Shown here: positions 8,118 to 32,425 of the stretch, in pieces
How positions within the stretch are numbered: position 1 is the stretch's first letter
Layout of the letters: each line of letters opens with the position of its first letter
DNA from: a virus
Virus record (IMG/VR): IMGVR_UViG_3300021170_000043
Coordinates: 1-36,845 of that record
Strand: one strand, 5' to 3'
Length of the DNA: 36,845 nt
Program-made: the position numbers and the translations under genes
The notes under the pieces: generated by a model
Databases searched by the model: none
What the model was told of the DNA's origin: nothing
What the model saw: the letters and a program-made list of their open reading frames with translations, nothing else

Positions 8118-8142
8118 GGAAGGAACTCCCTCGAAGAGGTGT

Positions 8143-8186
8143 GGTAGGACGAGCAAGCTCAGGAGGCCAAGTTCACTCGTCCTACC
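8143..8186 (-). promoter_or_regulatory. Perfect 11-bp hairpin between fibre-like and paralogue genes
   Basis: GGTAGGACGAG and CTCGTCCTACC form a perfect 11-bp stem around a 22-base loop, lying in the 97-base spacer between the fibre-like gene and the 131-aa gene. No U-tract follows on the minus strand. It could be a processing or stability element that sets different expression of the flanking genes. Confidence 0.5.
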
Positions 8187-8214
8187 GGACGCAGACTCCA
8201 ATCCGGCGAAGGCG

Positions 8215-17318: not shown

Positions 17319-17813
17319 ATGTCCGAAGACAGTACCCTCACCTATGACAAATGGTCGGTCAATGCGAATGACCTTCCCGCGAAGGCTATCGCCTATCTCC
17401 TCCACAACGGCTTCACGCAGAGCATGACCGATGCTGCGGCCTTCACGAAGGAGCAGAAAGCCGGCAAGACCGAGCAGCAAGTGAAGGACATGGCCACCGA
17501 GGCGCGCGATAAGCGCTTTCAAGCCATCCTCGCCGGCAGCGTCGGCATTCGTGTCGGCGGCCCAAGGCTCGACCCCGTGTCCCGCGCGAGCAACGACATT
17601 GTGGACGAGCGCCTTGCCGCCATCTGCAAGGCCCGCAACGTCGCCATGCCCAAGGGCGACGTTCTCAAGTCCGCCCGCGCGAAGATCATGGCGAAATTCG
17701 GCGCGGAGATCAAGTCGGAAGCCGAGGCCCGCGTCGCGAAGACCCAGGAGTCCGTGGCCGAGCTGGAGGGCCTGTTCGACGAGCCCGAGACCGAAGGGCA
17801 GGCTGCAGCGTAG
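17319..17813 (+). CDS. Hypothetical early protein, 164 aa
   Basis: AAGGA is 8-9 bases before the ATG. Sequence: LTYDKWSVNANDLPAKAIAY, then Lys/Glu-rich helices, RVGGPRLDPVSRASNDIVDE and an acidic end (AELEGLFDEPETEGQ). It has its own promoter and a hairpin 20 bases after its stop. In layout (about 160 aa, own strong promoter, Lys-rich helices, acidic end) it resembles the 160-aa gene at 26705, though direct similarity is weak. Unknown function. Confidence 0.75.
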   Translation: MSEDSTLTYDKWSVNANDLPAKAIAYLLHNGFTQSMTDAAAFTKEQKAGKTEQQVKDMATEARDKRFQAILAGSVGIRVGGPRLDPVSRASNDIVDERLAAICKARNVAMPKGDVLKSARAKIMAKFGAEIKSEAEARVAKTQESVAELEGLFDEPETEGQAAA

Positions 17814-18645: not shown

Positions 18646-19029
18646 GTGCCTACCGTGTCCTATCGCCAACCTAACCGGAACGGATACCTCGCACGACCCA
18701 TTGACGGTTTCGCAACACACGGCGCGGCGCATGCCCGCACAACCGGAACCGCGTCACTGGCAGGATTGACAGAGGACCAAGGGCTTCACGTTCGCCCGCA
18801 CCGCGTTAGGTTGGCGCTAGGACATTCGGCGGAACGCACCGCACCGTTAAACTCCGGCCCTACGCACCGGAGGCCCGCAAGGCCCTTGTGGCTGATCCTG
18901 GCGAGGAGCGGGCACCATTTAGGGAGCGCGCGGGTTTTGCGTCGCGAACCCTGAACCCCGGCAGCGTGACGCCCCTTGCGCTGCCGGGGGACCATTCGCA
19001 AGGGGCGCAGTTTCGCAAGGGGCCTTGCA
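18646..19029 (+). other. Long leader or decayed gene upstream of the vWA gene
   Basis: No intact gene is convincing. Protein-like pieces lie in different frames: TKGFTFARTALGWR ends at a TAG near 18823, and a frame through VKLRPYAPEARKALVADPGE runs on from there into the vWA gene to 19100. They may be remains of one gene broken by a frameshift. A perfect hairpin (18956-18989) and a direct repeat TTCGCAAGGGGC (18995-19025) lie just before the vWA start. It could also be a regulated RNA leader. Confidence 0.4.
18956..18989 (+). promoter_or_regulatory. Perfect 11-bp GC-rich hairpin upstream of the vWA gene
   Basis: CCCCGGCAGCG and CGCTGCCGGGG with a 12-base loop, 40 bases before the vWA start. 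No U-tract. Could be an attenuator, processing site or operator. Confidence 0.5.
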
Positions 19030-19683
19030 ATGCAACAGAACACACTATGTGCTCGATCGAGCACCCTACTCGCGCCGCAGTTGGATTACATCCTCGTTGA
19101 CGGAAGCTCCTCAATGCAGGATAAGTGGTGGAACACCCTCGCCGCCCTGGATAACTTCACTTCCGTGCTGCGCAGTGCGAATATCGCCTCGCATGGAATA
19201 GTCAGTGTGTTCTCCGGCCGCGACTTGCAAATGATCCAGCGGGACGACGTTATCGCCAAGTGGCACACATTCGCTGCCGCTCCACTCGCTTCCACGTGGC
19301 ACGATACGCCCTTGTATGACGCAGTTAACCTAATGGGCCGGCACCTTCGAGATCTCGCCCCTTCCCGCTGCAGCATTGTCATCGTAACCGACGGCGAGGA
19401 GAACGCTTCCCAGACCTCCGCCACGCAAGCGAAAAGCATCCTCGACTGGTGCCGCGCGCAGGGCTGGACCGTGACATTCCTGGGCGCCGACTTCGACAAC
19501 ACGACGCAAGCACGTTTGCTAGGCGCAAACGCCAGCAATTCCCTAGGGGTTCGCCGCGAGCTACTCCGCGAAGCCGGCACACTGCTCGGCAAGAAGCGAA
19601 TAGCTTGGCACGGCGACGGCGAAATCACATTCAGCGATGGTGAGCGGGCAAAGTTCGGCGGATACTTGGGGCACGCGCAATGA
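19030..19683 (+). CDS. von Willebrand factor A (vWA) domain protein
   Basis: 217 aa from ATG 19030 with AAGGGG 7 bases upstream; an upstream in-frame start at 18976 has poor support. The domain covers almost the whole protein: DYILVDGSSSMQDKW gives the MIDAS DxSxS, TPLYDAV supplies the conserved Thr, and IVIVTDGEENAS the DGEE metal ligand. vWA domains bind partner proteins through a divalent metal. Such proteins occur in phage accessory regions without a known role. The next gene overlaps its stop, so they are probably co-translated. Confidence 0.85.
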   Translation: MQQNTLCARSSTLLAPQLDYILVDGSSSMQDKWWNTLAALDNFTSVLRSANIASHGIVSVFSGRDLQMIQRDDVIAKWHTFAAAPLASTWHDTPLYDAVNLMGRHLRDLAPSRCSIVIVTDGEENASQTSATQAKSILDWCRAQGWTVTFLGADFDNTTQARLLGANASNSLGVRRELLREAGTLLGKKRIAWHGDGEITFSDGERAKFGGYLGHAQ

Positions 19684-20045
19684 GCGGGGCAACAGCAGCA
19701 GAACTTCCGAAGCAGGACCTTCTTGCGAAGCTCCTCGCCATGACGACTTCGCCCAATGATGGCGAGGCCCTATGCGCAATGCGCAAAGCCAACGCTCTGC
19801 TCCTCGCCGCCGGGTGGACTTGGGAGCGCTTGATCCAGGGGAAGATTAGGGTTCTCGAGGACCCCTTCAAGAGCATAGTCGAACCCGCTATCCGGCCGGC
19901 TGAGGAAATGAAGCGAGCCACCACGCCGGCGCAACAGCAGCCGTACTCCTACAACCCCGCGCCACGCCGCCCTCGCGCGCCATACAATCCTGCGAAGCGC
20001 AGAGTACCGAAGACAACCCTGGCCGATCTCGGCTTGGATGCGTAA
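19680..20045 (+). CDS. DUF2786-like small protein with C-terminal TTLADLGL tag
   Basis: 121 aa. N-terminal helical part (LLAKLLAMTTSPNDGEALCA then MRKANALLLAAGWTWERL) resembles the DUF2786 pattern of ageing Ala/Leu helices. Then a Pro/Arg/Tyr-rich disordered linker (PAPRRPRAPYNPAKRR) and the end TTLADLGLDA. That end peptide recurs in three other genes of this operon. The ATG overlaps the vWA stop. The linker-plus-tag design suggests recruitment to a shared partner; this is inference. Confidence 0.75.
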   Translation: MSGATAAELPKQDLLAKLLAMTTSPNDGEALCAMRKANALLLAAGWTWERLIQGKIRVLEDPFKSIVEPAIRPAEEMKRATTPAQQQPYSYNPAPRRPRAPYNPAKRRVPKTTLADLGLDA

Positions 20046-20055
20046 GGGGAGCGCA

Positions 20056-20259
20056 ATGACACAAGTCACCATTTCCTCCCTGCGCTTCGTCGCGCCATCG
20101 CCGAGTCTCCTGTTCCTCGTCGGCTGGCCCATCTCGCTCATATTCGCGCAGGAGTTCGGCTGGCGAGTGTGCGTGCGCGACGTGCCAACGGCAGGGCAGT
20201 ACGCTTCGCGAGACGAAGCGGCAAACGCACTCGCAATGGCGATGGGAGTAGCGCAGTGA
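20056..20259 (+). CDS. Hypothetical protein, 67 aa
   Basis: ATG 20056 with GGGGAG 4 bases upstream; an in-frame ATG at 20038 overlaps the previous stop region. It has a hydrophobic stretch (SPSLLFLVGWPISLIFAQEF) and a helical Ala-rich end. Could be a small domain with a buried core or weakly membrane-associated. Unknown function. Confidence 0.6.
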   Translation: MTQVTISSLRFVAPSPSLLFLVGWPISLIFAQEFGWRVCVRDVPTAGQYASRDEAANALAMAMGVAQ

Positions 20260-20454
20260 GCACCCGCATCGTAATGGACGTATGGAGCGGAAAATGGCTC
20301 GCAAGAGCACGTCGCGCGCTTCATTCGTTCACTTGAAGACGCCTTCATTCTGTCTCGCAGTGAATTGCGTGCAGGAAATCTTGTGAATTCGCGCAGCGAA
20401 GCTGCTTGGGGCACATACGAAGAGTTCGATAACAGAGGGGCAAAGTTGCAATGA
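20256..20454 (+). pseudogene. Small gene with apparent frameshift at an A4 run
   Basis: GTG 20256 overlaps the previous stop (CAGTGAGC) and encodes MSTRIVMDVWSGK, but this frame stops near 20336. From about 20290 a different frame reads GSQEHVARFIRSLEDAFIL to AAWGTYEEFDNRGAKLQ and ends in TGA at 20452-20454, overlapping the next ATG as all neighbours do. Removing one A from AAAA (20291-20294) joins the two into one 65-aa protein. It is a broken gene, a sequencing or assembly error, or a programmed frameshift. Confidence 0.6.
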
Positions 20455-20849
20455 GCGAGATCTATCCAATTCCCAAGTTCGCCGCCTACATCTGGCTAAC
20501 GGGAGATTCGCTCGCAATCGGGCTTCCTCCCGGCGACGAGGCTGAGCGCGGGCATACAGTGCTCATTCCATTGGCAAAGCTATCCGCCCTTCGCCCCATT
20601 GGCGACTGGGAGCACGATCATGGTACAGTGGACTTGTCTCGCTACGCCGCGACAGTGGGCTTCACAACACTAATTGACTTGCTGCGTGAACGCGAGCGTG
20701 TCGGCCGTGTGTCACCGCGCCTGGGCGAGCGAAGCGAACCTACCCAGTATAACATCGACGCCCTGCTGCGCCACGTCACAAAGTATAACTCGCGAGGAGA
20801 AGTAGCAGCGACGACCTTGGAAGATCTCGGTCTTGGGGAGGACTTCTGA
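20451..20849 (+). CDS. Hypothetical protein with C-terminal TTLEDLGL tag
   Basis: 132 aa. Mixed alpha/beta N-terminus (AAYIWLTGDSLAIGLPPGDE), then helices (TLIDLLRERERVGR) and a segment TQYNIDALLRHVTKYNSR. It ends EVAATTLEDLGLGEDF, the shared tag. Start and stop both overlap neighbours. Function unknown. Confidence 0.75.
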   Translation: MSEIYPIPKFAAYIWLTGDSLAIGLPPGDEAERGHTVLIPLAKLSALRPIGDWEHDHGTVDLSRYAATVGFTTLIDLLRERERVGRVSPRLGERSEPTQYNIDALLRHVTKYNSRGEVAATTLEDLGLGEDF

Positions 20850-21133
20850 TGGCCTTCGCGAATGCACCGAACAGCAAGATCATCCTCGAACGTGCAATGG
20901 CGCTCCTCGCCACATTCCACGAAACTGACACGAATGAGCATGTGGGCAACTCGCTCCTATTCGCCCTCGTCGTGCATAGCCTCACGGCCCGCGACAAGCG
21001 AATGACCCTCTGCGAGCACTTCGATGGCCTACGGGAGAAGTACGCGAAGCTATTCAAGCTAGTCCAGGCCACTGGCCTAGAGCAAGATTACGAAGTATAC
21101 TTGCAGGGCCAGCGTAGGGAGGAAGTCAGATGA
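20849..21133 (+). CDS. Hypothetical helical protein, 94 aa
   Basis: ATG overlaps the previous stop (TCTGATGG). Helical throughout (SKIILERAMALLATFHETDT, then SLLFALVVHSLTARDKRMTL) with a Glu/Arg end. No recognised domain. Coupled on both sides. Confidence 0.7.
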   Translation: MAFANAPNSKIILERAMALLATFHETDTNEHVGNSLLFALVVHSLTARDKRMTLCEHFDGLREKYAKLFKLVQATGLEQDYEVYLQGQRREEVR

Positions 21134-21528
21134 CTAAAGTTTCCGCACCCCTCGTCGGTATGCACTTCAGGCCCCCAGCGAAGGCGATCTTGCAGCACCT
21201 CCCTGCTGACTGTCCCCTGCAAGTCGTCCCGGAGCCGGACAACGCACATGACGAACACGCGTTGCAAGTGTTCGTAAAGAGCGCGGATATTCCCGCAAGC
21301 CAGCACGAAGACCTCGCCTCTGCCGCGCAGCTATTCGGCCACAGCATCGAGGACATTCTTGCACAGGAGCAATGGCACCTCGGATACGTGAAGGCTACTG
21401 AGGCCCTGCACTTGCAACCGCGTATCATGCAACTCGCCGCAGACACGAACACAGACGAGATATGTGTTCCGGCGACCCTCACATTCGGCGCTAGCGGCAA
21501 GCCGCTTGTGACAATGGAGCTTCCATGA
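21130..21528 (+). CDS. HIRAN-domain protein
   Basis: 132 aa. LVGMHFRPPAKAILQHL, then LQVVPEPDNAHDEHALQVFV and WHLGYVKATEAL follow the HIRAN pattern (G..F......L..L......L..EP.N..D..A..V......LGY....). HIRAN domains bind DNA 3' ends or damaged and stalled DNA in helicases such as HLTF and in stand-alone bacterial or phage proteins. The C-terminal 25 residues look like an extra strand. Here it lies upstream of the helicase, consistent with a DNA-repair or replication role. Confidence 0.75.
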   Translation: MTKVSAPLVGMHFRPPAKAILQHLPADCPLQVVPEPDNAHDEHALQVFVKSADIPASQHEDLASAAQLFGHSIEDILAQEQWHLGYVKATEALHLQPRIMQLAADTNTDEICVPATLTFGASGKPLVTMELP

Positions 21529-21977
21529 CGCAGGAACTCGAAGGCGCCGCTGGCGCCACGTCCCCTCGCCCAAGTCTCACCGAGCATGTTCAGCGCGCGG
21601 TGGAGGGCACGCGACTATTGCAAGAAGATAACTCGCGGCTTCGCGAGGACCTTGACCGGGCGAATGCCAGCCTTGCAATGGAGCAAACCAAGAACGAGCA
21701 ACTCGCAGGGCACTTGGCCAAGTGCGAGGCCCTCCGCGACCATTACATGCGACGGGCAGTGGAACTCGAAGTCGTCCTTACGACCCTGCAGTGCCTCGTA
21801 ATGGAAGCGGTGACGAATGGGAAGGCTGGGGAGTTCCGGGGAAGCGGGCAGCGGCAGAAGACAAAGCTCGAAGAGCTTGCTATCAGTTCGTCGCCGCCGC
21901 CTCTTACTGCCGATAGCAGGGCGCTCAGTAGCCTCGTCGCAAAGATCGGGCAGGGCGCGGGGCAGTTGAAGCCATAA
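21525..21977 (+). CDS. Coiled-coil protein, 150 aa
   Basis: Residues about 30-85 (LLQEDNSRLREDLDRANASL, then EQLAGHLAKCEALRDHYMRR) have heptad-like spacing, predicting a coiled coil. The C-terminal part is Ser/Pro-rich with a short amphipathic end. Start overlaps the HIRAN stop. No catalytic motif; may be an adaptor. Confidence 0.7.
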   Translation: MTQELEGAAGATSPRPSLTEHVQRAVEGTRLLQEDNSRLREDLDRANASLAMEQTKNEQLAGHLAKCEALRDHYMRRAVELEVVLTTLQCLVMEAVTNGKAGEFRGSGQRQKTKLEELAISSSPPPLTADSRALSSLVAKIGQGAGQLKP

Positions 21978-21992
21978 GGAGGAACTAGGAAA

Positions 21993-22022
21993 ATGAAGAA
22001 CTTCACTCCGCTGAAGCCATGA
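21993..22022 (+). CDS. Nine-residue leader peptide
   Basis: MKNFTPLKP with AAGGAGG about 10 bases upstream; its TGA overlaps the ATG of the next gene (CCATGATAA). The next gene has no ribosome site of its own, so this mini-frame probably loads ribosomes by coupling. Confidence 0.45.
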   Translation: MKNFTPLKP

Positions 22023-22426
22023 TAACTCGCACGCTCCGCAACGGCATTACTCGCACATATTATCCGTGGTCGGAAGCGGAAGTAATCCGCCGCAGACTTC
22101 GAGTCTCCGGAGCTTCGCTATCCAAGCTCCTTGGATGGAATCCAGCTATGTGGTCAGACTGGAAGCGGATAGGCTTCATACCTTCCCCTGTCATGATTTC
22201 GTTAAAATTCCTCGCCCGCTCAAAGCAACTCATTCCAAGCAGCATGCTGCAAGACGACTCAAACCGATGGGGAATAGGAGCAATCCCCGTTGGCCACTTC
22301 AAGTGGATCGAGACCACTGCCCTACGCAAAGCCCGCCGCGCTGTTGGTCGCTTCCACGACAGAAACGCAGGAAGGTTCTCCATGAAGACCTTCAAGGGCG
22401 GAATCATGATCTATAGGCATTCATAA
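22019..22426 (+). CDS. Helix-turn-helix-like basic protein, 135 aa
   Basis: Residues 17-60 (SEAEVIRRRLRVSGASLSKL then LGWNPAMWSDWKRIGFIPSP) resemble an XRE-type HTH with recognition helix near WNPAMWSDWK. The C-terminal half is rich in Arg/Lys/Trp/Phe (HFKWIETTALRKARRAVGRF). Likely DNA-binding. Translated by coupling with the leader peptide. Confidence 0.6.
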   Translation: MITRTLRNGITRTYYPWSEAEVIRRRLRVSGASLSKLLGWNPAMWSDWKRIGFIPSPVMISLKFLARSKQLIPSSMLQDDSNRWGIGAIPVGHFKWIETTALRKARRAVGRFHDRNAGRFSMKTFKGGIMIYRHS

Positions 22427-22626
22427 TGCGAGTCACGATCTCCTTGCAAGTGCCGAAGTCCTATTCGCACCTTTCCGCGAAGCAGGTGCAATTCTTACTG
22501 AAGCGTGCCATTGAACACGACAGGTTCTGGCAACGGCAGTTCCTGCGACGAGGGAAGGACCAACCATTTCAGCGAACTAGGGTACTTGTAAGTGGGGACA
22601 CTGTGGCAGACTTGAGGGCACGATAA
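22426..22626 (+). CDS. Small basic protein, 66 aa
   Basis: ATG overlaps the previous stop (ATAATGCG). Sequence SAKQVQFLLKRAIEHDRFWQ has Arg/Gln-rich helices and a short strand end (TRVLVSGDTVADLR). It is directly followed by the helicase start. No domain recognised. Confidence 0.65.
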   Translation: MRVTISLQVPKSYSHLSAKQVQFLLKRAIEHDRFWQRQFLRRGKDQPFQRTRVLVSGDTVADLRAR

Positions 22627-24165
22627 ATGACCTCTTTCACTCCCACCGCCGAGCAGCAAGCCATCGTGAGCGCTGCGACAGGAAGCAAGACTTCCCTCAT
22701 GATCCAAGCCTTCGCTGGTTGCTCGAAGACGACGACCTTAGAGCTTGTGGCTCGGGCACTTCCCAGCGACCTGCCAATTCTCTACATCGTTTTCAATTTG
22801 AAGAACAAGAAAGAGGCCGAGGCCAGATTCCCTCCCAATGTCGTAGTGAAAACCATCAACGGCCTCGGCCACGGCGCCTGGGCCAAAGCCATCGGCAAGC
22901 GGCTCACATTGGATGACCGCAAGCTCGGGAAGCTCGTCACGGCCATTGCGAAGGAGCGCGGCTTCAACCCTTCCACTGACCAATGGTCGGGCATCCGCGA
23001 GCTGGTAACGAAAGCCATGCAAGTCGGGCTCGTTCCTAGCAACTACTCCCAAAGGGGCCTAGTAGAGGACACCCAGGAAACGTGGAACGATCTCGCGGAC
23101 TCCTGCGGGGTATTTGAGCAAGTGGAAGTCCTGACAAGCATTGCGAGGGAGGTCCTCGACGCGAGCATTAAGCAGGGGTTCTCGGGTATTATTAGCTTTG
23201 ACGACCAGATATACCTCAGCGTTTTGTTCCACGGAGTCTTCCCTCGGTTTCCACTTGTCCTTGTGGACGAGGCCCAGGACCAAAGTATGCTCAACATCAA
23301 GATGATTTCCCGCACGGCGGCAGACCGCTTAATCGTCGTGGGAGATGACAAGCAAGCGTGTTACCTGTGGCGCGGGGCAGCAGGAGACGCGATGAAGCAA
23401 CTTCGGGTGCTTCGTGCCGAGTGGATCGACCTCCCACTTGCGACTACATTCCGCTGCCCCAAGGTCGTCGTCGCGCGGCAGCAGAAGCACGCACCGGGAT
23501 TCAAGGCATGGGAGCAGTGTAAGGACGGTGAGCACATTCGGTTTCCAAAGAAACCACCGCAAGATGCCCCTGACGAGCAGCCCCATTGGATTTGGACAGA
23601 TGTTCCAAACGGCGGAACGGCTGCCGTTATCTGCCGCAATAACGCGCCGATCCTCTCGCTCGCCTTCAAGCTCCTCGCGCAGGGCACGGCAGTCGTTATG
23701 CTCGGCCGGGACATCGGGAAGGGGCTAGTGGCACTTAGCAAGAAACTCCTGCCGCGCGATGACTTGCAGCGCGATCAGTGTGCCGCACTGATCGAAGATT
23801 GGCGCAACAAGGAAGTCGCGTTCGCGAATGCCAACGGGCAAGAGCGGAAGGCCGAAGGGATCAACGACAGGGCTGACTGCCTTCTCGCCGTGCTCGGAAG
23901 TGAGGGCGTGCAGCATAGCGGCGATCTGCGAAGCAAGCTCGAAGCCCTCTTCGCTCGCGAGAACGGCAAAGTGACCCTCTCTAGCATCCATCGCGCAAAG
24001 GGCCTCGAATGGGATACCATTGTCCACTTGGACCCTTGGCGCATCCCTTCGAAGTATGCGAAGCGCGACCCGGCGCAGCTCGTGCAAGAGTGGAACTTGA
24101 AATATGTCGCGGAGACTAGAACAAAACATACTTTAATAGAAGCTTGTTTAGAGGATTTTCAGTAA
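22627..24165 (+). CDS. SF1 (UvrD/Dda-like) DNA helicase
   Basis: 512 aa. Motif Q/N-terminal TPTAEQQAIVSA, motif I QAFAGCSKTTT (27-37), motif II LVLVDEAQDQS (210-220), motif III VVGDDKQACYLWRG (about 237-250), LATTFRCP and motifs V/VI SSIHRAKGLEWD and VAETRTK (about 494). This is a superfamily 1 ATP-driven helicase, shorter than UvrD and closer in size to phage Dda. It likely unwinds DNA during replication or recombination. The last 17 codons are AT-rich and duplicate an orphan tail 72 bases further on; see 24184-24237. Confidence 0.9.
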   Translation: MTSFTPTAEQQAIVSAATGSKTSLMIQAFAGCSKTTTLELVARALPSDLPILYIVFNLKNKKEAEARFPPNVVVKTINGLGHGAWAKAIGKRLTLDDRKLGKLVTAIAKERGFNPSTDQWSGIRELVTKAMQVGLVPSNYSQRGLVEDTQETWNDLADSCGVFEQVEVLTSIAREVLDASIKQGFSGIISFDDQIYLSVLFHGVFPRFPLVLVDEAQDQSMLNIKMISRTAADRLIVVGDDKQACYLWRGAAGDAMKQLRVLRAEWIDLPLATTFRCPKVVVARQQKHAPGFKAWEQCKDGEHIRFPKKPPQDAPDEQPHWIWTDVPNGGTAAVICRNNAPILSLAFKLLAQGTAVVMLGRDIGKGLVALSKKLLPRDDLQRDQCAALIEDWRNKEVAFANANGQERKAEGINDRADCLLAVLGSEGVQHSGDLRSKLEALFARENGKVTLSSIHRAKGLEWDTIVHLDPWRIPSKYAKRDPAQLVQEWNLKYVAETRTKHTLIEACLEDFQ

Positions 24166-24183
24166 CACTTGCCCGAAAGATGC

Positions 24184-24237
24184 GAGACCCGTTCGAAGCA
24201 CACGCTGATCGAGGCTAACCTGGAGGACTTCGCATGA
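24184..24237 (+). pseudogene. Orphan second 3' end of the helicase gene
   Basis: These 17 codons encode ETRSKHTLIEANLEDFA and stop. The helicase itself ends ETRTKHTLIEACLEDFQ, 72 bases earlier. Almost every third base differs: the in-gene copy uses AGA, TTA and ATA, this one CGT, CTG and ATC like the rest of the operon. The TGA here overlaps the ATG of the next gene, as expected of the ancestral end. An 18-base segment (24166-24183) separates the copies. Confidence 0.75.
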
Positions 24238-24464
24238 ACGATGCACGAAGGAAGGCGCTTACACAGGCGCAGAAGCTCATAAGCGAAGCGCAATCCGTTG
24301 TCGAGGCTGCTCGCGACGAAGAACAGGACGCTTTCGACAACAAGCCAGAGCCGCTGCAAGGAAGCGAAAAGGGCGAGGCTGCAGAAACGGCCATTACTAG
24401 CCTCGAAGAGGCAGCAAATTCGCTCGAAGAGGCAATCGGCGCAATCGACGTGGCTTGCGAATGA
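24234..24464 (+). CDS. Small acidic helical protein, 76 aa
   Basis: RRKALTQAQKLISEAQSVVE, AARDEEQDAFDNKPEPLQGS and SLEEAANSLEEAIGAIDVA predict two helices, probably a helical hairpin. It resembles a phage family with the core RDEEQxAFDNxPExLQxSE, of unknown function. ATG overlaps the orphan helicase tail's stop. Confidence 0.75.
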   Translation: MNDARRKALTQAQKLISEAQSVVEAARDEEQDAFDNKPEPLQGSEKGEAAETAITSLEEAANSLEEAIGAIDVACE

Positions 24465-24670
24465 GGCTCCTTCTCGCCCTTTCCCTCGCCGCTTCCGTCG
24501 CCTTCAATTGGCTCGCCATCGGCGCGTGGTACGTGGAGTACGAAAGCGCTCTACGCTGGCAGAGCCTTGCAAGGGAGCAAGACGACGTGACTACGCAGCA
24601 GGACGAAGTAGTTCGAAAGGCCAGCGCTGCGCTGTCGCAGTGCATGGAACTCTACATCCAGGCGAGGTAA
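24461..24670 (+). CDS. Small single-pass membrane protein
   Basis: 69 aa. Residues 2-24 (RLLLALSLAASVAFNWLAIG) form a membrane helix or signal anchor, followed by a charged helical part (WQSLAREQDDVTTQQDEVVR). Layout resembles an inner-membrane spanin (Rz-like), but size and context are not enough to call it. ATG overlaps the previous stop. Confidence 0.6.
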   Translation: MRLLLALSLAASVAFNWLAIGAWYVEYESALRWQSLAREQDDVTTQQDEVVRKASAALSQCMELYIQAR

Positions 24671-24717
24671 GGGCACTCGCTACAACCCAGGCTTGTTAGA
24701 CAAGCAGGAGGCAGGAA

Positions 24718-25968
24718 ATGCAAACCATCTTCTTCCAGAACCCAGGTGAGATTGATCCGCGCGTGATAACTACCATGGGCGTGAACGTGAAGCCAGGCGC
24801 GGCCGCCAGCGGCCCAATTGGCTACTTCGGCACCGGGCTCAAGTACGCCATCGCAGTGCTGCTTCGCAATGAGCAAGAAGTCGAAGTTTGGAGCGGCCTT
24901 ACGAAGTACTCCTTCTCCCTCGCTCCGCAGGACATAAGGGGGAAGTGGTTCAACCTAGTCGCTATGGCGAAGGACGGCGGCTCGCCCCGCTCCCTCGGCT
25001 TCACATCTGACCTCGGCAAGAACTGGACCGTGGAGAACGCCTACAGGGAGCTTCACTCCAACTCGCTCGACGAGTGCGGTGAGCCGGGGCAGGAGGGCGA
25101 GCCGGCGCCGAGGGCAGGGCGAACTTGCATCGTGGTGCGAGGTGGAGCCTTCGCAAAGGCTCATCGAGAGCGCTTCAGTTTCCTTCTTGATCCCTCGCGA
25201 GTGAAACTCTTCAACGATGGCACTGTGGAAGTCTTCGCCGGGCAGAGCAGCAAGGTATTCTACAAGGGAATAGCTGCGATGCAACTCCCCGAGGACTGCC
25301 CCTCGTCCTACACATATAACTTGCTCGGTAAGCAGCGACTCACCGAGGATCGCACGTTCGAATCGTGTTGGTCCATTCAAGAACAAATCTCCAGGTGTCT
25401 TTGTACCGCTGCACCCGAGGGCGTCCTGGAAACGGTCTTCACTTCCAAGTCTGTGATGGAAGCGAACCTCTCCTACGGCTTCGCGAAGCCGAGCGAGCAG
25501 GCACTCGACACGATTGAGAAGATTATGAAGGAGCGCCCATTGGCGCTCCTTGACAACGTGCGAAGCGTGTATTTTCGCAATCGTTCGAAGGAAGTGAAGC
25601 GCGAGGAGGCGCAGCTAAGTAGTGAGCAAAAGGCGGCCCTTGCAGACGCCATGAGGTTTTGCGAATCCATCGGCTTCCACATTTCGCAGTACCCAGTGAA
25701 GTACTGCCAGAGCCTTGGCGAGCGCGTCATCGCCCTAGCAGACCAGGGAACGATTTGGCTCTCCCGAAGGGCGTTCGACGAGAGCCTTCTCGTGGAGAGC
25801 CTCCTTGAGGAGTTCATCCACCTGCGCAATCGCGTCGCGGACGAGACGCGGCAAATGCAGAATGTGCTCTTCGCGGAGATCATTCGCCTCGGTCGGCAGA
25901 CCAGAGGCCTTCCGCCATTGGGCAGACAGCCCCCGCGCATTCTTCTGAACGACGAAATTCCCTTCTAG
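24718..25968 (+). CDS. GHKL (HATPase_c)-type ATPase with SSB-like C-terminal tail
   Basis: 416 aa. IFFQNPGEIDPRVITTMG and GPIGYFGTGLKYAIAVLLRN (G2 box GYFGTGLK, 35-42) match GHKL ATP-binding folds (Hsp90, MutL, histidine kinases). A later LLEEFIHLRN (E-E-x-x-H) lies in a helical C-terminal part. It ends PRILLNDEIPF; DEIPF closely resembles the DDIPF tail of bacterial SSB, which docks replication proteins. AGGAGG lies about 7 bases before the ATG. Possibly a partner of DNA maintenance proteins; mechanism unknown. Confidence 0.7.
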   Translation: MQTIFFQNPGEIDPRVITTMGVNVKPGAAASGPIGYFGTGLKYAIAVLLRNEQEVEVWSGLTKYSFSLAPQDIRGKWFNLVAMAKDGGSPRSLGFTSDLGKNWTVENAYRELHSNSLDECGEPGQEGEPAPRAGRTCIVVRGGAFAKAHRERFSFLLDPSRVKLFNDGTVEVFAGQSSKVFYKGIAAMQLPEDCPSSYTYNLLGKQRLTEDRTFESCWSIQEQISRCLCTAAPEGVLETVFTSKSVMEANLSYGFAKPSEQALDTIEKIMKERPLALLDNVRSVYFRNRSKEVKREEAQLSSEQKAALADAMRFCESIGFHISQYPVKYCQSLGERVIALADQGTIWLSRRAFDESLLVESLLEEFIHLRNRVADETRQMQNVLFAEIIRLGRQTRGLPPLGRQPPRILLNDEIPF

Positions 25969-25983
25969 AGGAGTTCCTGCAAG

Positions 25984-26241
25984 ATGCACTACTCCAAAGT
26001 CTCCCCTGGCCTCTGGATCATCCAGACCCACGGCACAGTGGGCCGCATGGGTTGCATCTCGCGCGTGTTCCTCGACCACACCTGCGAGGTGCAATTCGGC
26101 ACGGACGGACCATTCGTAGTGCTCCGCTCTCGCTCCTTCCGCCCTGCTACGAAGGAAGAGAAGAAAGCCTTCGGAACTAGCAACTACGGCGTCGTGGAGC
26201 CACAGGAATGGAGTGCTGCCAATGCGCTACCACGCACCTGA
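25984..26241 (+). CDS. Hypothetical protein, 85 aa
   Basis: GAGG is about 13 bases before the ATG. Beta-rich sequence (GLWIIQTHGTVGRMGCISRV, FLDHTCEVQFGTDG), Lys/Glu segment and a short end. Could be a small SH3/KOW-like fold. Its 3' end overlaps the next gene by 20 bases. Confidence 0.65.
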   Translation: MHYSKVSPGLWIIQTHGTVGRMGCISRVFLDHTCEVQFGTDGPFVVLRSRSFRPATKEEKKAFGTSNYGVVEPQEWSAANALPRT

Positions 26242-26584
26242 ACGACCACAGTACGGAAGTGATCTTGCGAGCGCATTACGTATCATTGGCCCCGCCGGCC
26301 CGCTCGGCGCGTTGCCTATACTGAACATGGAGCCGAATGAGGACGGAACTTGGTGGATCAGGGTCCACTTGCAAGTAAGCACCTCAACGTTTCGGGAGTA
26401 CACTTGCTGCATTAGTGCCATCAGAGAGTTTATGCAGTTGTGGTTACAGGACCCAGAAGCGGTCCTGAAAGACTTCTTCCACTACGACTTCTCGATGGCC
26501 CCCGCCAGGGCACCAAGGGGCACGCAAGGGCACTCGCAAGAGCACTCTGCTACAACACTGGAGGACCTCGGACTCGGCCCGTAG
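26222..26584 (+). CDS. Hypothetical protein with C-terminal TTLEDLGL tag
   Basis: 120 aa from ATG 26222 (GGAG 8 bases upstream; a GTG at 26213 is possible). Folded-looking first 85 residues (DGTWWIRVHLQVSTSTFREY and CISAIREFMQLWLQDPEAVL), then a disordered Ala/Arg/Gln/His linker (APARAPRGTQGHSQEHS), then ATTLEDLGLGP, the shared tag. It ends the unit that precedes the repeat and promoter at 26.6 kb. Confidence 0.7.
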   Translation: MRYHAPERPQYGSDLASALRIIGPAGPLGALPILNMEPNEDGTWWIRVHLQVSTSTFREYTCCISAIREFMQLWLQDPEAVLKDFFHYDFSMAPARAPRGTQGHSQEHSATTLEDLGLGP

Positions 26585-26594
26585 GGCCGGCCCC

Positions 26595-26634
26595 GCCGGC
26601 CCACAATTGGAAGTACAATTGTGTGTTGCGGCGC
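26595..26634 (+). repeat. Dispersed hairpin repeat, copy C
   Basis: GCCGGCCCACAATTGGAAGT then ACAATTGTGTGTTGCGGCGC. CACAATTG/CAATTGTG is a perfect 8-bp stem with a 6-base loop. GGGCCGGC/GCCGGCCC forms another hairpin just before and GGCGC/GCGCC just after. It lies between the 120-aa gene and a promoter, similar to copies A and B near 15.2-15.4 kb. Confidence 0.65.
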
Positions 26635-26652
26635 ATTGCGCCACCCGCCCCA

Positions 26653-26681
26653 TTGACACACTACGCCTGACCCTTTATACT
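26653..26681 (+). promoter_or_regulatory. Sigma70-type promoter
   Basis: TTGACA (26653-26658), 17-base spacer, TATACT (26676-26681). It lies 24 bases before the 160-aa gene. Unlike the others it has no TGn before the -10. Confidence 0.75.
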
Positions 26682-26704
26682 GCCCCACAACGAAAGGACC
26701 ATTC

Positions 26705-27187
26705 ATGGAACCCGCCGCCAAGCCCGCCGCCGCTTCGACCCTTGAGCTTGTGATCCACGGCATATCCTTCCAAGCACCGCAGCCCTTCAGCGAAGGACAC
26801 AGATGCTCCGCAGGGGAGGCCGCGGTGCTCAACGGCATCCTCGCCGAGAATCTCAAGTCGAACTTCAGCAAGAAGATCAAGGACAAAGACATCTCGGTAG
26901 AGGAAGCGCAGAAGCAATTCGCGGCCTACGCTGCCTCTTACGTCCTCTCCCCTCGCCCTTCCATCGATCCCACCGACCGTGCGGCCTTGCGCATAGCCGG
27001 CGACCTCGTGAAGGAAGCGCTGAATGCGAAGGGGCAGAAGCCGGGGGACCTCGCAGACGGACTGTGGGAGAAGTATGTCGCAGTGGTCGCGGCGAAGCCC
27101 AACGTGCGCGCAGAGGCGAAGCGCAGAGTGGAGGCTACGAAGTCTATCGTCTCGCAGACACTCGACCTCGACGGTATTGGCGGCTAA
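26705..27187 (+). CDS. Hypothetical protein, 160 aa
   Basis: AAAGGA about 6 bases before the ATG. Contains CSAGEAAVLNGILAENLKSN, then FSKKIKDKDISVEEAQKQF, RAALRIAGDLVKEALNAKGQ and an acidic end (SQTLDLDGIGG). Helical with Lys/Glu surfaces. Own promoter directly upstream suggests high expression. Its architecture recalls the 164-aa gene at 17319. Function unknown. Confidence 0.75.
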   Translation: MEPAAKPAAASTLELVIHGISFQAPQPFSEGHRCSAGEAAVLNGILAENLKSNFSKKIKDKDISVEEAQKQFAAYAASYVLSPRPSIDPTDRAALRIAGDLVKEALNAKGQKPGDLADGLWEKYVAVVAAKPNVRAEAKRRVEATKSIVSQTLDLDGIGG

Positions 27188-27301
27188 CGCCGCCAGAGAA
27201 CTATGACTACATTCGCTCGCCGCCTTGCTGTGTAGTAGGAGGACTGTGGAAGCTGGCGGCCGTACGCTTCCCTGGCCACAATAACAGAGGAACTAAAGAA
27301 G

Positions 27302-27568
27302 TTGGCTTCCGCCCCCAATCCGCAGTACGTTGAACTCCTCTATCGCGCCCTCGCCGCGCCCATCGGCATTGCAGTGTTGTGCAGTGATGCGACAAGGGCT
27401 CGGAATAGCCTCTACGTTGCGCGAGCGAAGCTTGCCGACCCGTTGCTCGATCGTTTGCAAGTTCGCGTGAACCCACTGCTGCCCGCGAAGGAACTTTGGC
27501 TTATCAAGACGCCAGAGGCGCCAAAGGCGCCGCCGAAGCCTGCGAAGTTCGATTTGAGTCTAATCTAG
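27302..27568 (+). CDS. Hypothetical protein, 88 aa
   Basis: Start at TTG 27302, with GAGGA about 10 bases upstream. Helical/strand mix (YVELLYRALAAPIGIAVLCS, DATRARNSLYVARAKLADPL) with a Pro/Lys-rich end. The 114 bases before it hold two mini-frames (MTTFARRLAV and, after AGGAGG, MEAGGRTLPWPQ) that may be leaders. Confidence 0.6.
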   Translation: MASAPNPQYVELLYRALAAPIGIAVLCSDATRARNSLYVARAKLADPLLDRLQVRVNPLLPAKELWLIKTPEAPKAPPKPAKFDLSLI

Positions 27569-27580
27569 GAACTGTCTGCT

Positions 27581-27820
27581 ATGAAACTCTGGCTTCTTCG
27601 ATCAATTGAGAATCCATTCGCATTTCCAGACAACAAGTCTGGCGGAAATTGTGGCAGCAAGAATGAAGTTCGCTCTGGCCAGCGTGTCATATACACGATT
27701 GATGGTCGCCACGCAATGCTTGACGAATGCTTGCAAGACGGAGATGCCTTCGTGACCTGGAACGACGGAACATTCGGCACGGTTAAGTGGAGCCACTTAA
27801 TTCCTGCGGAGCCGAAATGA
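27581..27820 (+). CDS. Hypothetical protein, 79 aa
   Basis: Beta-rich (SGQRVIYTIDGRHAMLDECL, DAFVTWNDGTFGTVKWSHLI); ends in a Lys. Resembles small SH3/KOW-like phage proteins, not confirmed. Its stop overlaps the next ATG. Confidence 0.65.
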   Translation: MKLWLLRSIENPFAFPDNKSGGNCGSKNEVRSGQRVIYTIDGRHAMLDECLQDGDAFVTWNDGTFGTVKWSHLIPAEPK

Positions 27821-28029
27821 TCGCTCGCAACACCAACGCTGACTTGCGCCGTCGGCACATCTGGATGGACGACGACGATTGGCAGTGGATTCATGAGACC
27901 TTCGGCCCGAGGAACATGAAGCCAAGCGAAGTCATTCGACTTATCCTTCGGAAATATCGCCAGGGCGTAGAGGCCAAGGCAGCAGCCCTTGCCCATCGCC
28001 CTGCCGTGGAGCCTCACATCGATGGCTAA
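27817..28029 (+). CDS. Possible ribbon-helix-helix protein, 70 aa
   Basis: ATG overlaps the previous stop (AATGATCG). RRRHIWMDDDDWQWIHETFG, then MKPSEVIRLILRKYRQG: strand, helix, turn, helix with an SEVIR motif as in ribbon-helix-helix DNA-binding proteins (Arc, MetJ). Probably a small transcriptional regulator. Confidence 0.6.
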   Translation: MIARNTNADLRRRHIWMDDDDWQWIHETFGPRNMKPSEVIRLILRKYRQGVEAKAAALAHRPAVEPHIDG

Positions 28030-28085
28030 AGGGGACCAGGAAGCTGAGCGCCGAAGGCTGCAGATTGCAGAAGGGAGGCTTCGAG

Positions 28086-28274
28086 TTGAAAATGGGCTTC
28101 TCCCTGCGCGAGTTGCTATTCCTACAGGCTGCACTTCGGATGATGCGAGCAAGGATTCGCTCCTCGCCGAGCATACAGAAGGAACTCCTTCTACTTGACA
28201 ATAGACTAACTCGTCTGCGAGCATTCTCCAATGGCCCCTCCGCCGCACCACAGAGCGAATCCGAAGAGTCGTAA
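28086..28274 (+). CDS. Small helical protein, 62 aa
   Basis: TTG 28086 with GGAGG 7 bases upstream, or ATG 28092. FSLRELLFLQAALRMMRARI and SIQKELLLLDNRLTRLRAFS form Leu/Arg-rich amphipathic helices. Acidic end. No domain recognised. Confidence 0.55.
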   Translation: MKMGFSLRELLFLQAALRMMRARIRSSPSIQKELLLLDNRLTRLRAFSNGPSAAPQSESEES

Positions 28275-28473
28275 GTTTAGCCTAAAGGCGCGAACGGCCA
28301 AAGGCCGGGCGAAGAAGCACGGCGATTTCCGCGAGTTATCCATCTACCTCACTACTCCGCAACTAGAACTCCTGCGAGAGCGAGCAGAGCAGAATGACAA
28401 CTCCCTCAGTGCCCAAGTCCGAAGCGACATCGAGCGCGCCAGCCAGCAGTGGTGTGCCTTCGCCCCTCGCTGA
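28231..28473 (+). CDS. Possible ribbon-helix-helix protein, 80 aa
   Basis: Basic N-terminal arm (RKFSLKARTAKGRAKKHGD), then RELSIYLTTPQLELLRERAE and NSLSAQVRSDIERAS, matching a strand-helix-helix pattern of RHH regulators. It overlaps the previous gene by 44 bases and the next by 80. Ribosome site unclear. Confidence 0.5.
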   Translation: MAPPPHHRANPKSRKFSLKARTAKGRAKKHGDFRELSIYLTTPQLELLRERAEQNDNSLSAQVRSDIERASQQWCAFAPR

Positions 28474-28708
28474 AGCCGACGCGCAGTCGCTCGAAGTCCT
28501 AATGTCCCGCGATCCTTTCGAGATGATTGTCGAGGACGACTCGGAAGTCGCTTCGGCGCGCGAAGCGCGGAACTTCCCCACTATCGTTGCAGCACTTCGC
28601 CGGCAGCGCGAGGCTTGGAAGCGCGCCGAAGCGACAGGTGCGACTAAAGCGCCAAAAGCAGCTAAGGCGAAGGTTACCACGAGCCTTGAAGACCTCGGAT
28701 TAGAGTAA
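28394..28708 (+). CDS. Hypothetical protein with C-terminal TTSLEDLGL tag
   Basis: 104 aa. Disordered Ser/Pro/Ala start, acidic middle (SRDPFEMIVEDDSEVASARE), helix (TIVAALRRQREAWKRAE), Ala/Lys-rich linker (GATKAPKAAKAKV) and end TTSLEDLGLE, the shared tag. Its first 80 bases overlap the RHH-like gene. Confidence 0.65.
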   Translation: MTTPSVPKSEATSSAPASSGVPSPLAEADAQSLEVLMSRDPFEMIVEDDSEVASAREARNFPTIVAALRRQREAWKRAEATGATKAPKAAKAKVTTSLEDLGLE

Positions 28709-28709
28709 G

Positions 28710-28958
28710 ATGACTGAACAAGTCAAGACATGTCCTTTTTGTGGCACAGCCGCTGCTTTCTTGAAGAAGGAAAGCGCGAGAGCTGCGGAAGGCGAAGCAC
28801 CGATGAGAGCACTGGGCTGTAACAATGAAGGCTGTAGCATACGTCCGCAGACGCCCTGGCGCGATACACAGCAATGGAAGCAAGGAGTTGGTTATTACGA
28901 CGTAAGCTATGACAAAGTTGCAATTTCTGAATGGAACCGCCGCCTTGCAGACCTTTGA
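28710..28958 (+). CDS. Lar-like restriction-alleviation zinc protein
   Basis: 82 aa. KTCPFCGTAAAFLKKE and LGCNNEGCSIRPQTPW supply two Cys pairs (C..C and C....C) and the end has KVAISEWNRR. This is the layout of the Lar family (CPFCG...C...C, then A...WN.R), whose founding Rac-prophage member counters type I restriction. Function here is by family resemblance only. Start is two bases after the previous stop. Confidence 0.65.
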   Translation: MTEQVKTCPFCGTAAAFLKKESARAAEGEAPMRALGCNNEGCSIRPQTPWRDTQQWKQGVGYYDVSYDKVAISEWNRRLADL

Positions 28959-29892
28959 AACCAACAGCGCATTCTCCAAGGTGCAGCCAAACTTGCAACT
29001 CGCCTGGGATAGCACCAGCAGTGGGCTACTCAAAACCTGCCCACGCCTCTACCAGTACGCCATTATCGAGGGCTATGAGTCCCGCATTCGAAACGTCCAC
29101 TTGCACTTCGGCATTCTCATGCACGAGGCGAAGGAAACCTACGACAAAGCGCGGGCACGTAGTGCCCCTCACGACGCAGCAGTAGTGGAAGCACTTCGCC
29201 ACATCATGTGCTCGACTTGGAACAAGGATCTAAATCGGCCCTGGGCCAGCGAGGACAAGCACAAGAATAGGGAAACGCTAATCCGAACGGTTGTCTGGTA
29301 CTTCGAGGAGTACAAAGACGATCCCATTCACACTGTCGTCTTCCCCGACGGAAGGCCAGCTGTTGAGCTGAGTTTCTCCTTCAACACAGACTACTTCGCC
29401 GGGACAGGGGAACGTTTCCTGCTCGCCGGCCACATAGACCGGATAGGAGAACTTGGCTCACAAACCTTCGTCTGTGACGTGAAGACAAGCAAGTACCAAC
29501 TCGATGAACGATGGTTCGCGCAATTCACTCCGCATAACCAGTTCACAATCTACACCATCGCCACGAAAGTCGTCTACGCCTTGCCGGCGCACGGACTCAT
29601 AGTCGATGGCATCCAAGTCGCCATGACGTTCTCTCGCTTCGAGCGCCGGCCGGTGTATCGTAGCGAAGCACAACTGGAGGAATGGTACAAGGGCTTCGGC
29701 GTGCTCGTGAAGCAGGCAGAGCAGTACGCGAAGGACAACTATTGGCCAATGAACGAGACATCGTGTGATAAATTCGCCGGATGCCAGTTTCGCAGGATAT
29801 GCAGTCATTCACCACAGGTGCGAGAACAGTGGCTGAAGAGCGACTTCATAAAGCGCACTTGGAATCCACTCGCGGTGCGAGGAGATGTGTAA
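28909..29892 (+). CDS. Cas4/AddB-like PD-(D/E)XK nuclease with Cys cluster
   Basis: 327 aa from 28909, or 315 from TTG 28945, which avoids a 50-base overlap with the Lar-like gene. TCPRLYQY (C44) and the C-terminal CDKFAGCQFRRIC (Cys near 285, 290, 296) make the one-plus-three cysteine layout that binds a 4Fe-4S cluster in Cas4 and AddB. GHIDRIGEL (Asp) and FVCDVKTSK (D-x-K) are the catalytic PD-(D/E)XK motifs, followed by a QF...Q motif. Probably a DNA-end exonuclease of the phage recombination module. Confidence 0.85.
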   Translation: MTKLQFLNGTAALQTFETNSAFSKVQPNLQLAWDSTSSGLLKTCPRLYQYAIIEGYESRIRNVHLHFGILMHEAKETYDKARARSAPHDAAVVEALRHIMCSTWNKDLNRPWASEDKHKNRETLIRTVVWYFEEYKDDPIHTVVFPDGRPAVELSFSFNTDYFAGTGERFLLAGHIDRIGELGSQTFVCDVKTSKYQLDERWFAQFTPHNQFTIYTIATKVVYALPAHGLIVDGIQVAMTFSRFERRPVYRSEAQLEEWYKGFGVLVKQAEQYAKDNYWPMNETSCDKFAGCQFRRICSHSPQVREQWLKSDFIKRTWNPLAVRGDV

Positions 29893-30056
29893 TGGGCAAC
29901 GGTATAATCCTGTGGAAGTCACAGAAGTCCAGCCTTGCGAGTCCTCCCCCGCGCATTTCGCCGTATGATCGCTCTGGTGACGCGAAGCGGAAGCGAAGGG
30001 TGAAGATTACGCTGCCGAAGTTGAAGTGCTTGGAAGAGGATACCTCGCCTAAATGA
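29892..30056 (+). CDS. Small basic protein, 54 aa
   Basis: ATG overlaps the nuclease stop (TAATG). MGNGIILWKSQKSSLASPPP then a Lys/Arg-rich stretch (RSGDAKRKRRVKITLPKLK). Overlaps the Sak4-like gene start (ATGA). Unknown. Confidence 0.6.
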   Translation: MGNGIILWKSQKSSLASPPPRISPYDRSGDAKRKRRVKITLPKLKCLEEDTSPK

Positions 30057-30943
30057 CCAACATCGCGCAGCACCAGAGCGCCCAGACTACAAAGTTGCTC
30101 CTCATAGGTCACTCAGGTTCCGGAAAAACTGGGGCCTTGGCAAGCCTCGCCGCAGCGGGTTACAAGCTTCGCATCCTTGATTTCGACAACGGCCTCGACA
30201 TCTTGAAGAACTACGTGACAGACGCACAGTCGCCATATGTTAAGCAGGCACCCAATTGTGCGGAGAACATCGACTACATCACCTGCACCGATAAGATGCG
30301 GAACATCGCCGGAAATATATCCTGCCAGAAGGCAGAGGCTTGGCAAAGGGCAACGGAAGCGCTAGTGCACTGGAAGTACAAGCAGGGGGAAGTCGCCGTT
30401 GACCTTGGCAAGATCACCGATTGGGGGCCAGACACCATTCTATGCGTTGACTCCCTTTCAATGGCAGCCACAGCGGCCCTGAACTTCCACCTGCAAATGA
30501 ATGGTAAGCTCGGACAGGCAAGGACGCAGAACGAGGGGAGAAGGGACATCGGGGCTACGCAGGGGCATCTTCGGAAGTTGCTCGAACTCCTGTACGACGA
30601 CAGCATTAAGTGCAACATCATCGTGAACTCCCACATAACTATGGTGACGGAGAGTGGCCTTGGTCCACAGAGCGAAGAGTTCAAAGCGGAAGGTGGAAGC
30701 GAAACTCCAAAAGGCTTCCCTAGTGCTATCGGTCGCGCACTCAGCCCCATCATTCCACGATTCTTTAATTCCGTACTGTTTGTCGATACTGCAGGAAGCG
30801 GGGCTTCTGCGAAACACAAGATTTACACCCGATCCCAGGGGGCCATCTTGGTCAAAACTACTGCGCCCTTGCGCGTCAAGAACGAATATGACCTTTCAGA
30901 CGGACTAGCGCAGTACTTCGCCGCCGTGAGGGCACAAGCATGA
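30053..30943 (+). CDS. Sak4-like RecA-type ATPase
   Basis: 296 aa. Walker A LLLIGHSGSGKTGAL (GHSGSGKT, 19-26), LRILDFDNGLD, Walker B TILCVDSLS (about 126-134) and NIIVNSHIT. This matches phage AAA_24/Sak4 proteins, RecA-related single-strand annealing recombinases. It is preceded by the Cas4-like nuclease and followed by the candidate ssDNA-binding gene, the usual neighbourhood for a phage recombination set. Confidence 0.85.
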   Translation: MTNIAQHQSAQTTKLLLIGHSGSGKTGALASLAAAGYKLRILDFDNGLDILKNYVTDAQSPYVKQAPNCAENIDYITCTDKMRNIAGNISCQKAEAWQRATEALVHWKYKQGEVAVDLGKITDWGPDTILCVDSLSMAATAALNFHLQMNGKLGQARTQNEGRRDIGATQGHLRKLLELLYDDSIKCNIIVNSHITMVTESGLGPQSEEFKAEGGSETPKGFPSAIGRALSPIIPRFFNSVLFVDTAGSGASAKHKIYTRSQGAILVKTTAPLRVKNEYDLSDGLAQYFAAVRAQA

Positions 30944-31269: not shown

Positions 31270-31349
31270 GGGTATGAAGTACCGTACTCCCGCCCCCATT
31301 CCATCCTGAGATGGAATATCACGAAGCAACCAACCAGGAGCACCTACCA

Positions 31350-31814
31350 ATGACAGTTGACTTCAAAGCCCTTCTCGCGAAGCCACTTGACGATGTGAAA
31401 CGCCCTCCCGCACCGCCTGCCGGCACGTACTTCGGCATCATAAGGGCGTTCAAGTTCCAGGAGTCCGCGTGGACCAACAACGATACCGGGGACAAGGACG
31501 CCCAAGTCCGCTACACCATCAACAACATCGAGGCAGGGGAAGCGATCCTCGCCGATGCCTCGCTGCTCGAAGGAATCGACCTCACAAAGAGGCAATTCAA
31601 CTGCGATTTGCCCCTTTCTGGCGGCAACGAGTGGGTTACGAAGACCTTCCTCGACTCCCTCGGCATCGCTACCAGCGGCAAAGGTTTCGGCGAAACCTGC
31701 CCGGAGGCTATCGGCCACGCTGTGATGTTCGACGTAACCCATCGGCTCAACAAGAACGACCCCGCTGCGCCGCCGTTCACCGACGTGAGGAACCTTCGCA
31801 AGAGGCCTGAGTAG
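31350..31814 (+). CDS. Putative single-stranded DNA-binding protein
   Basis: 154 aa from ATG 31350 with CAGGAG 9 bases upstream; an earlier in-frame ATG at 31311 lacks a site. PPAGTYFGIIRAFKFQESAW, QVRYTINNIEAGEAI and GHAVMFDVTHRLNKNDP are strand-rich, with PPFTDVRNLRKRPE at the end. The arrangement fits small OB-fold SSB-like proteins next to Sak4-like genes, but no acidic tail was seen. The call is from context plus composition. Confidence 0.5.
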   Translation: MTVDFKALLAKPLDDVKRPPAPPAGTYFGIIRAFKFQESAWTNNDTGDKDAQVRYTINNIEAGEAILADASLLEGIDLTKRQFNCDLPLSGGNEWVTKTFLDSLGIATSGKGFGETCPEAIGHAVMFDVTHRLNKNDPAAPPFTDVRNLRKRPE

Positions 31815-32218: not shown

Positions 32219-32425
32219 ATGGCACCGTACATATTACTTTACGACATAGAAGAAGATGCCTTTTTCCAGTGCGAAATTGATGAGGGATCTGCGCGGAAAG
32301 CTAGAGCGGCTGGGCCATTCAGCAATTCAGTGATTGACATTAGAGAAACTCCATTTCCCAATATCAAGATCAGGTCGAGGTATCGCTCAGTGCGAATGAG
32401 GAGTCTTCCTGATGCTACTTACTGA
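32219..32425 (+). CDS. Hypothetical protein, 68 aa
   Basis: ATG 32219 with AGGA about 8-9 bases upstream. YILLYDIEEDAFFQCEIDEG starts it, then basic and Arg-rich parts (IKIRSRYRSVRMRS). Overlaps the methyltransferase start by 14 bases. Unknown. Confidence 0.6.
   Translation: MAPYILLYDIEEDAFFQCEIDEGSARKARAAGPFSNSVIDIRETPFPNIKIRSRYRSVRMRSLPDATY

Follow-up and report, generated by a model that had tools for sequence, protein, structure and literature searches.

In this work, we analysed the C-terminal tails of small proteins encoded by a 36,845-nucleotide stretch of viral DNA (IMG/VR virus record IMGVR_UViG_3300021170_000043, positions 1 to 36,845, hereafter the window). Four proteins with unrelated bodies, named p1 to p4, share the peptide TTLEDLGL or a close variant of it at their C-terminus. 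This peptide is under selection at the protein level and is kept in orthologues, and related phages have counterparts of it, spelled differently from genome to genome, on unrelated proteins. We consider it probable, at roughly 60 %, that it is a docking motif tethering accessory proteins to one phage-encoded core partner. No description of a shared phage tail of this kind was found in the open-access literature.

The first-pass annotation of the window had reported four proteins with a common tail, and all four were recovered in frame on the (+) strand: TTLADLGL-DA in p1 (tail 20013-20036, gene 19680..20045), TTLEDLGL-GEDF in p2 (tail 20811-20834, gene 20451..20849), TTLEDLGL-GP in p3 (tail 26552-26575, gene 26222..26584, with an alternative GTG start at 26213) and TSLEDLGL-E in p4 (tail 28679-28702, gene 28394..28708). 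It had described the last 8 to 12 residues as being the same; the shared peptide holds, its strictly terminal position does not, two to four residues following GL in three of the proteins and one in p4. A six-frame scan of the window found DLGL four times only, each time a few residues from the stop of one of p1 to p4. When residues were shuffled within the 238 open reading frames (ORFs) of at least 60 amino acids, ORFs bearing the motif [TS]Lx[DE]LGL in their last 18 residues numbered 0.001 on average and one at most in 2000 shuffles, versus four in the window.

The TTLEDLGL of p2 and that of p3 are identical as peptides and differ in seven of eight codons, all changes being synonymous. Such codon divergence behind an identical peptide indicates selection on the peptide, and rules out both a recent DNA duplication and a nucleotide signal. 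A cause at the DNA level, i.e. a ribosome-binding or coupling signal common to the 3' ends or a recent duplication, might find some backing in the stop codon of p2, which overlaps the next start; these codons refute it for all practical purposes, and the distance to the next gene varies from an overlap to more than 100 bases. Protein bodies were compared by profile-profile alignment after removal of the last 25 residues. No pair among p2, p3, p4, p6 and two small conserved proteins, x27302 and x27787 (these families are described below), reached a probability of 0.5 %, in keeping with the different bodies that had been claimed; p1 has a weak DUF2786 match only, and the sole paralogous pair of the comparison was p5 and p6 (hhalign 100 %). 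The same peptide thus stands on unrelated bodies, at flexible ends and under protein-level selection, and the proposed design as a short linear motif is strongly supported by the unrelated bodies, the conserved tail, the codon divergence and the genome-by-genome co-variation in 45 relatives.

A close relative was found in a 62-kb IMG/VR contig (G001; UvrD 78 % and Sak4 83-85 % identical), in which three of the four tagged genes, p2, p3 and p4, recur with their tails. The p2 orthologue (in L002) has a body 70 % identical and ends in AATSLADLGLDDEPVNHEFP, the p3 orthologue (L005:797-1144) is 43 % identical and ends in STTTLEDLGL, and the p4 orthologue (L005:3818-4141) is 64 % identical and ends in VTTSLAELGLDD (TTSLAELGLDD). 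The first-pass annotation had suggested looking for the tail in related phages and for its co-occurrence within single genomes: these orthologues keep it and co-occurrence holds across the lineage, and the refuting conditions that it had named, e.g. related proteins lacking the tail or bodies aligning as duplicates, were not borne out. A degenerate TTLEDLGL pattern retrieved 13 loci from IMG/VR and was C-terminal only in G001 and in G002 (L018), a distant syntenic relative with a UvrD helicase and a p5 homologue. A near-identity search of INPHARED with the region returned no matches, tblastn returned none with p2 to p4 and one weak DUF2786 match with p1 (Bdellovibrio phage phi1422), and a scan of bacterial genomes returned only three contigs from metagenome-assembled genomes. 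In Pseudomonas phage NP1 and Salinibacter phage SRUTV-1, which have related helicases and lie outside the lineage, the regions read contained no sets of shared tails.

Relatives were gathered with a helicase alignment and then with a nuclease alignment, i.e. some 160 loci. In many of these genomes, several unrelated proteins end in a tail that is common within the genome and spelled differently from one genome to another, with spellings including LEDLGL, LSDIGL, LDELLGD, AEDLDL, DLGELKL and NIELDI. Sets of tails were seen in G003 (FKLSDIGL/PKSLSDIGL/FSLADIGL), G004 (SLDDLLD/LDFDDLLEGLE/YSLADLLGDE/SVDELLSGLD), G008 (LTLADLGL, LTLKDLGL), G009 (NAEDLGL/APEDLGL), G011 (AEDLDL/QEDLDLE), G012 (IDDLDF/AADMEF/DSVDF), G013 (LSLEDLGL-type on four proteins), G015 (VDLKELGLL/VDLEELGLL), G019 (DLGELKL/DLGELSL), G034 (NIELDI/NIAIDI) and G037 (MLSELGL/MLEELGL/MLGELGL), and further loci follow the same pattern (e.g. 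L169, L175, L178, L191, L213, L222). The only cultured relative found, Caulobacter phage Kuura, bears ELNIDDLFSE on its p4 homologue (Kuura_036) and LSIDDLLSTL on Kuura_051. Pairing all ORFs in all frames by tail similarity was noisy, yet real tags surfaced.

Within-genome matching was assessed by permuting genome labels among 45 dereplicated genomes (nucleases less than 65 % identical). Between-family tail similarity within genomes exceeded that of all permutations (z = 5.1, 0/20,000). The strongest pair was p3-p4 (within 21.9 versus between 15.7, p = 5e-5), and p2-p3 (p = 0.0026) and p4-p6 (p = 0.0028) gave signals as well; internal segments, used as a control in the same permutation test, gave no significant result. 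Among 42 genomes, the p4 tail matched proteins of its own genome 32 times, 8.9 matches being expected from other genomes, and 19 of the 42 had at least one second protein matching it.

The tagged families differ in their build and distribution. The weak DUF2786 match of p1 lies near its N-terminus and is followed by a Pro/Gln/Tyr-rich linker and the tail; directly upstream is a gene for a VWA-domain protein (18976-19683), and a profile search found no homologues of either protein in the other genomes of a 35-genome set. The p2 family is present in 17 genomes. p4, encoded just upstream of the nuclease gene, belongs to the general carrier family and combines an LxELFxRDP...R..R body with an Ala/Lys linker. 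p5 (26705..27187, +) has the tail ..SQTLDLDGIGG and some tagged relatives (LLDDLLDEAA in G004); the window copy of its paralogue p6 (17319..17813, +) ends only in ..AELEGLFDEPETEGQAAA, and relatives of p6 carry a tail (VSLEDLGL, IDMDDLGL). Tagged relatives also exist for x27302 (27302..27568, +; YSLADLLGDE in G004, QEDLDLE in G011), and a few relatives of x27787 (27787..28029, +) have tail-like ends. In the structural region, adjacent paralogous proteins (window 7326-7673 and 7722-8315, -; G001 43155-43950, -) end in ATLLxALG[IL], a wording that resembles the tail and that we judged to be a different repeat.

A second type of tag was found in a distant subgroup (G022, G023, G024, G028, G031, G038 and G040), in which p4 always ends in basic residues (FKRRF, ARRF, FVRRV, FRRL, FRRRL, FRRM or FTRRL), with an LxxLLG[LI] motif and a linker often preceding them. 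The subgroup carries a basic tag also on most of its Sak4 proteins (LTLKRI), on other proteins and on all small-terminase homologues found (FRRI, FRRL, FRRRA, FKRRA, IARRF); the same families of the main group lack such ends. Loci with FxRR[LIFVMA] or LTLKRI were L044, L045, L148, L150, L152, L153, L155, L159, L160, L161 and L162. Tags such as FKRRF and LTLKRI resemble the MuA-type ClpX signal (RRKKAI), and many tails end in hydrophobic residues; both would suit degrons read by a host protease, e.g. ClpXP or Lon. We regard this function as highly improbable: tails of the window and of G004 have acidic or mixed ends (GLE, LLGDE, GEDF) with residues beyond the motif, and the spelling of the tails is phage-specific. 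Tentatively, and at somewhat less than even odds, the tails may make up a private address code, in which each phage would have its own tail spelling and a matching core pocket and would recruit only its own accessory proteins, genes entering the operon would gain the local spelling, and the distant subgroup would have added its basic tag, also on Sak4 and on the small terminase. The DUF2786-like p1 of the window is tagged and the different DUF2786-like protein of the close relative (L002:5961-6692) is not, which looks like a gain of the local spelling.

The tagged genes encode small accessory proteins and are located in a replication operon, the core of which consists of a PDDEXK nuclease, a Sak4/RAD51-like ATPase, an OB-fold SSB, a split Pol I and, usually, UvrD. 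Nearly all genomes have p4, the PDDEXK nuclease, Sak4, the SSB-like protein, UvrD, a UDG-exonuclease and the paralogous p5/p6. We propose that the tail, placed at the flexible C-terminal end of these accessory proteins, acts as a short linear motif for docking and would tether them, unrelated as they otherwise are, to one shared partner. This partner would most likely be phage-encoded, a member of the conserved core of nuclease, Sak4, SSB and polymerase, and tail and pocket would diverge together in each phage line. Binding itself, a single partner, its phage origin and its place in the replication core are inferred. The first-pass annotation had suggested that one replication, transcription or virion protein recruits the small proteins; recruitment by one partner is in part borne out as the best inference from the co-variation, and the replication core is favoured. 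Both the setting of the tagged genes in the replication operon and the variation of structural modules among tag-bearing genomes make a virion partner less likely.

The same facts bear on the idea that the tails are capsid-targeting or cargo-loading peptides carrying proteins into the virion. Shared terminal peptides are known to load cargo into HK97-fold shells, and with encapsulin cargo peptides and the T4 capsid targeting sequence, too, several cargo proteins have one terminal peptide in common; here, the tagged proteins are small, and p4 has a very weak match to a scaffold family (E = 0.032). However, the tagged families sit in the replication operon, the replication core is conserved among tag-bearing genomes whereas structural modules are not, and no link to capsid genes was found. 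In the basic-tag genome G031, structural genes, the small-terminase family apart, are shared by no more than six genomes of the other group and replication genes by most, the capsid gene not being singled out. Cargo loading therefore appears quite improbable.

A host protein such as the beta sliding clamp, to which the Pol IV motif binds, is in our view an unlikely docking partner. The LGL end of the tail resembles the Pol IV motif QLVLGL, and no phage-encoded clamp was present among the conserved families checked. Yet the clamp-defining Gln is absent from all four tails, and a pocket conserved in the host would not be expected to favour a new spelling in every phage line, whereas the tails differ strongly between genomes and agree within them, though hosts may differ too. 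Overall, docking on a phage core protein is the best explanation, the host-clamp, degron, capsid-cargo and DNA-level readings fitting less well.

Among core proteins, the nuclease, Sak4 and the SSB are candidate partners. The PDDEXK nuclease (28909..29892, +) matches Pfam PDDEXK_1 (2e-16), and its Foldseek matches, obtained with the read-through model described below, include AdnAB, RecE and MGME1. The Sak4/RAD51-like ATPase (30053..30943, +) matches phrog_124 (2e-9) and AAA_24, its Foldseek matches including RAD51. For the SSB-like OB-fold protein (31311..31814, +), Foldseek matched PrgE (8s4s, TMt 0.64), an OB-fold protein that binds single-stranded DNA (ssDNA); no DDDIPF-like acidic tip was found in 34 C-termini of SSB-like homologues. 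The UvrD-type SF1 helicase (22627..24165, +; phrog_1967, 4e-75) is unlikely to be an obligatory partner, because no homologue was found in phage Kuura, which has tails. Net charges of tail and nuclease were correlated over all genomes (rho -0.55); the correlation is confounded by lineage, as its significance was lost within the acidic-tail group.

AlphaFold was applied to natural same-frame read-through chains, with stops replaced by Gly, and its output came without contacts. For the p4-nuclease-Sak4-SSB chain of G029, the three enzymes folded well and the tail formed a helix with a predicted local distance difference test score (pLDDT) of 67, surrounding linkers ranging from ~30 to 55. In the p3-polymerase chain of G012, the tail block, in a p3 modelled without alignment, had a pLDDT of ~30 and was not docked. 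An amphipathic helix of this sort would also suit tails that bind each other, i.e. stickers assembling the small proteins without a separate receptor, and self-binding would likewise yield within-genome matching. We consider this rather unlikely, since a lone acidic helix carrying one or two leucines is probably a weak self-association motif and strand-like tails occur in other genomes.

Several observations weigh against docking on one core partner. The pLDDT of 67 is intermediate and compatible with an isolated amphipathic helix, and the tails range from helix-like (LLKDLGL) to strand-like (NIELDI), a wide range for one pocket. Mirror-tree partial correlations singled out no core protein. 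At the threshold used, 23 of the 42 genomes had no second match to their p4 tail, which is partly due to partial contigs and diverged tails, and the x27302/x27787 signal taken alone weakens under stronger dereplication. Finally, several thresholds and windows were tried without correction, and the exact values are indicative.

Other features of the region were noted. The family A polymerase comes in two pieces, an exonuclease subunit with a UDG-like part ahead of it and a polymerase subunit of its own (window 34593-35645; L005:9252-12501), and the window contig ends before the latter. At 32412-33821, a DNA methyltransferase seems to be fused to a ParB-like N-terminal domain; this family is present in 23 genomes of the main group and in none of the basic-tag subgroup. 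A possible exported HNH endonuclease with a signal-peptide-like N-terminus is encoded at 33725-34276 (weak Pfam matches, E = 0.039). Small proteins with a twin-arginine-like start, SRRGFLAGLGACFAAPAIVRA, are encoded in the window (13057-13347, -) and conserved in the relative (L002:197-583, -; L005:2763-3458), with a Pfam TAT_signal match only at E = 0.088.

Short terminal peptides with comparable roles are known from other replication systems. In phage T7, gp2.5 and gp4 have acidic C-terminal tails, strongly acidic with a terminal aromatic residue, that bind the gp5 polymerase, so that different phage replication proteins likewise share one tail type for one partner; here, more protein families are tagged, and the p3-polymerase model showed no docking on the Pol I-like polymerase. 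The beta-clamp and PCNA motifs (QLxLF, QxxLx[LF]; PIP-box) are also short hydrophobic peptides, often C-terminal, that bring many partners to one hub, whereas the present tails lack the defining Gln and change their spelling from phage to phage. The SSB tip (DDDIPF) of bacteria and phages is likewise short, acidic and hydrophobic; it sits at the C-terminus on a flexible linker and recruits proteins of DNA metabolism, and a Sak4-SSB pair is encoded nearby here too. In contrast, the SSB-like protein is here without a tip, the peptide stands on several small unrelated proteins, and the tails are LxDLGL-like with Gly-Leu, often with trailing residues, and have no IPF or PPF ending. The tail is thus most like the SSB tip in its behaviour and, by the features tested, is a member of neither the SSB-tip nor the clamp-motif family. 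For binding to SSB-coated ssDNA, Sak4 of phage HK620 depends on the acidic tip (NDYPPF) at the C-terminus of its SSB (PMC5928155). Should the phage SSB be the receptor, a possible model is RPA70N, in which the OB-fold of an ssDNA-binding protein binds acidic amphipathic peptides of many partners (PMC10479964), those motifs being eukaryotic and internal.

If docking on a phage core partner is correct, the tail would amount to a phage version of the SSB tip or clamp motif, rapidly re-spelled and carried by many small proteins of no known function, and proteins bearing the tail of their genome could be assigned to one complex by sequence alone. The natural tail variants would offer a ready-made test of peptide-pocket co-evolution, and they may point to how co-infecting phages keep their replication machineries apart.

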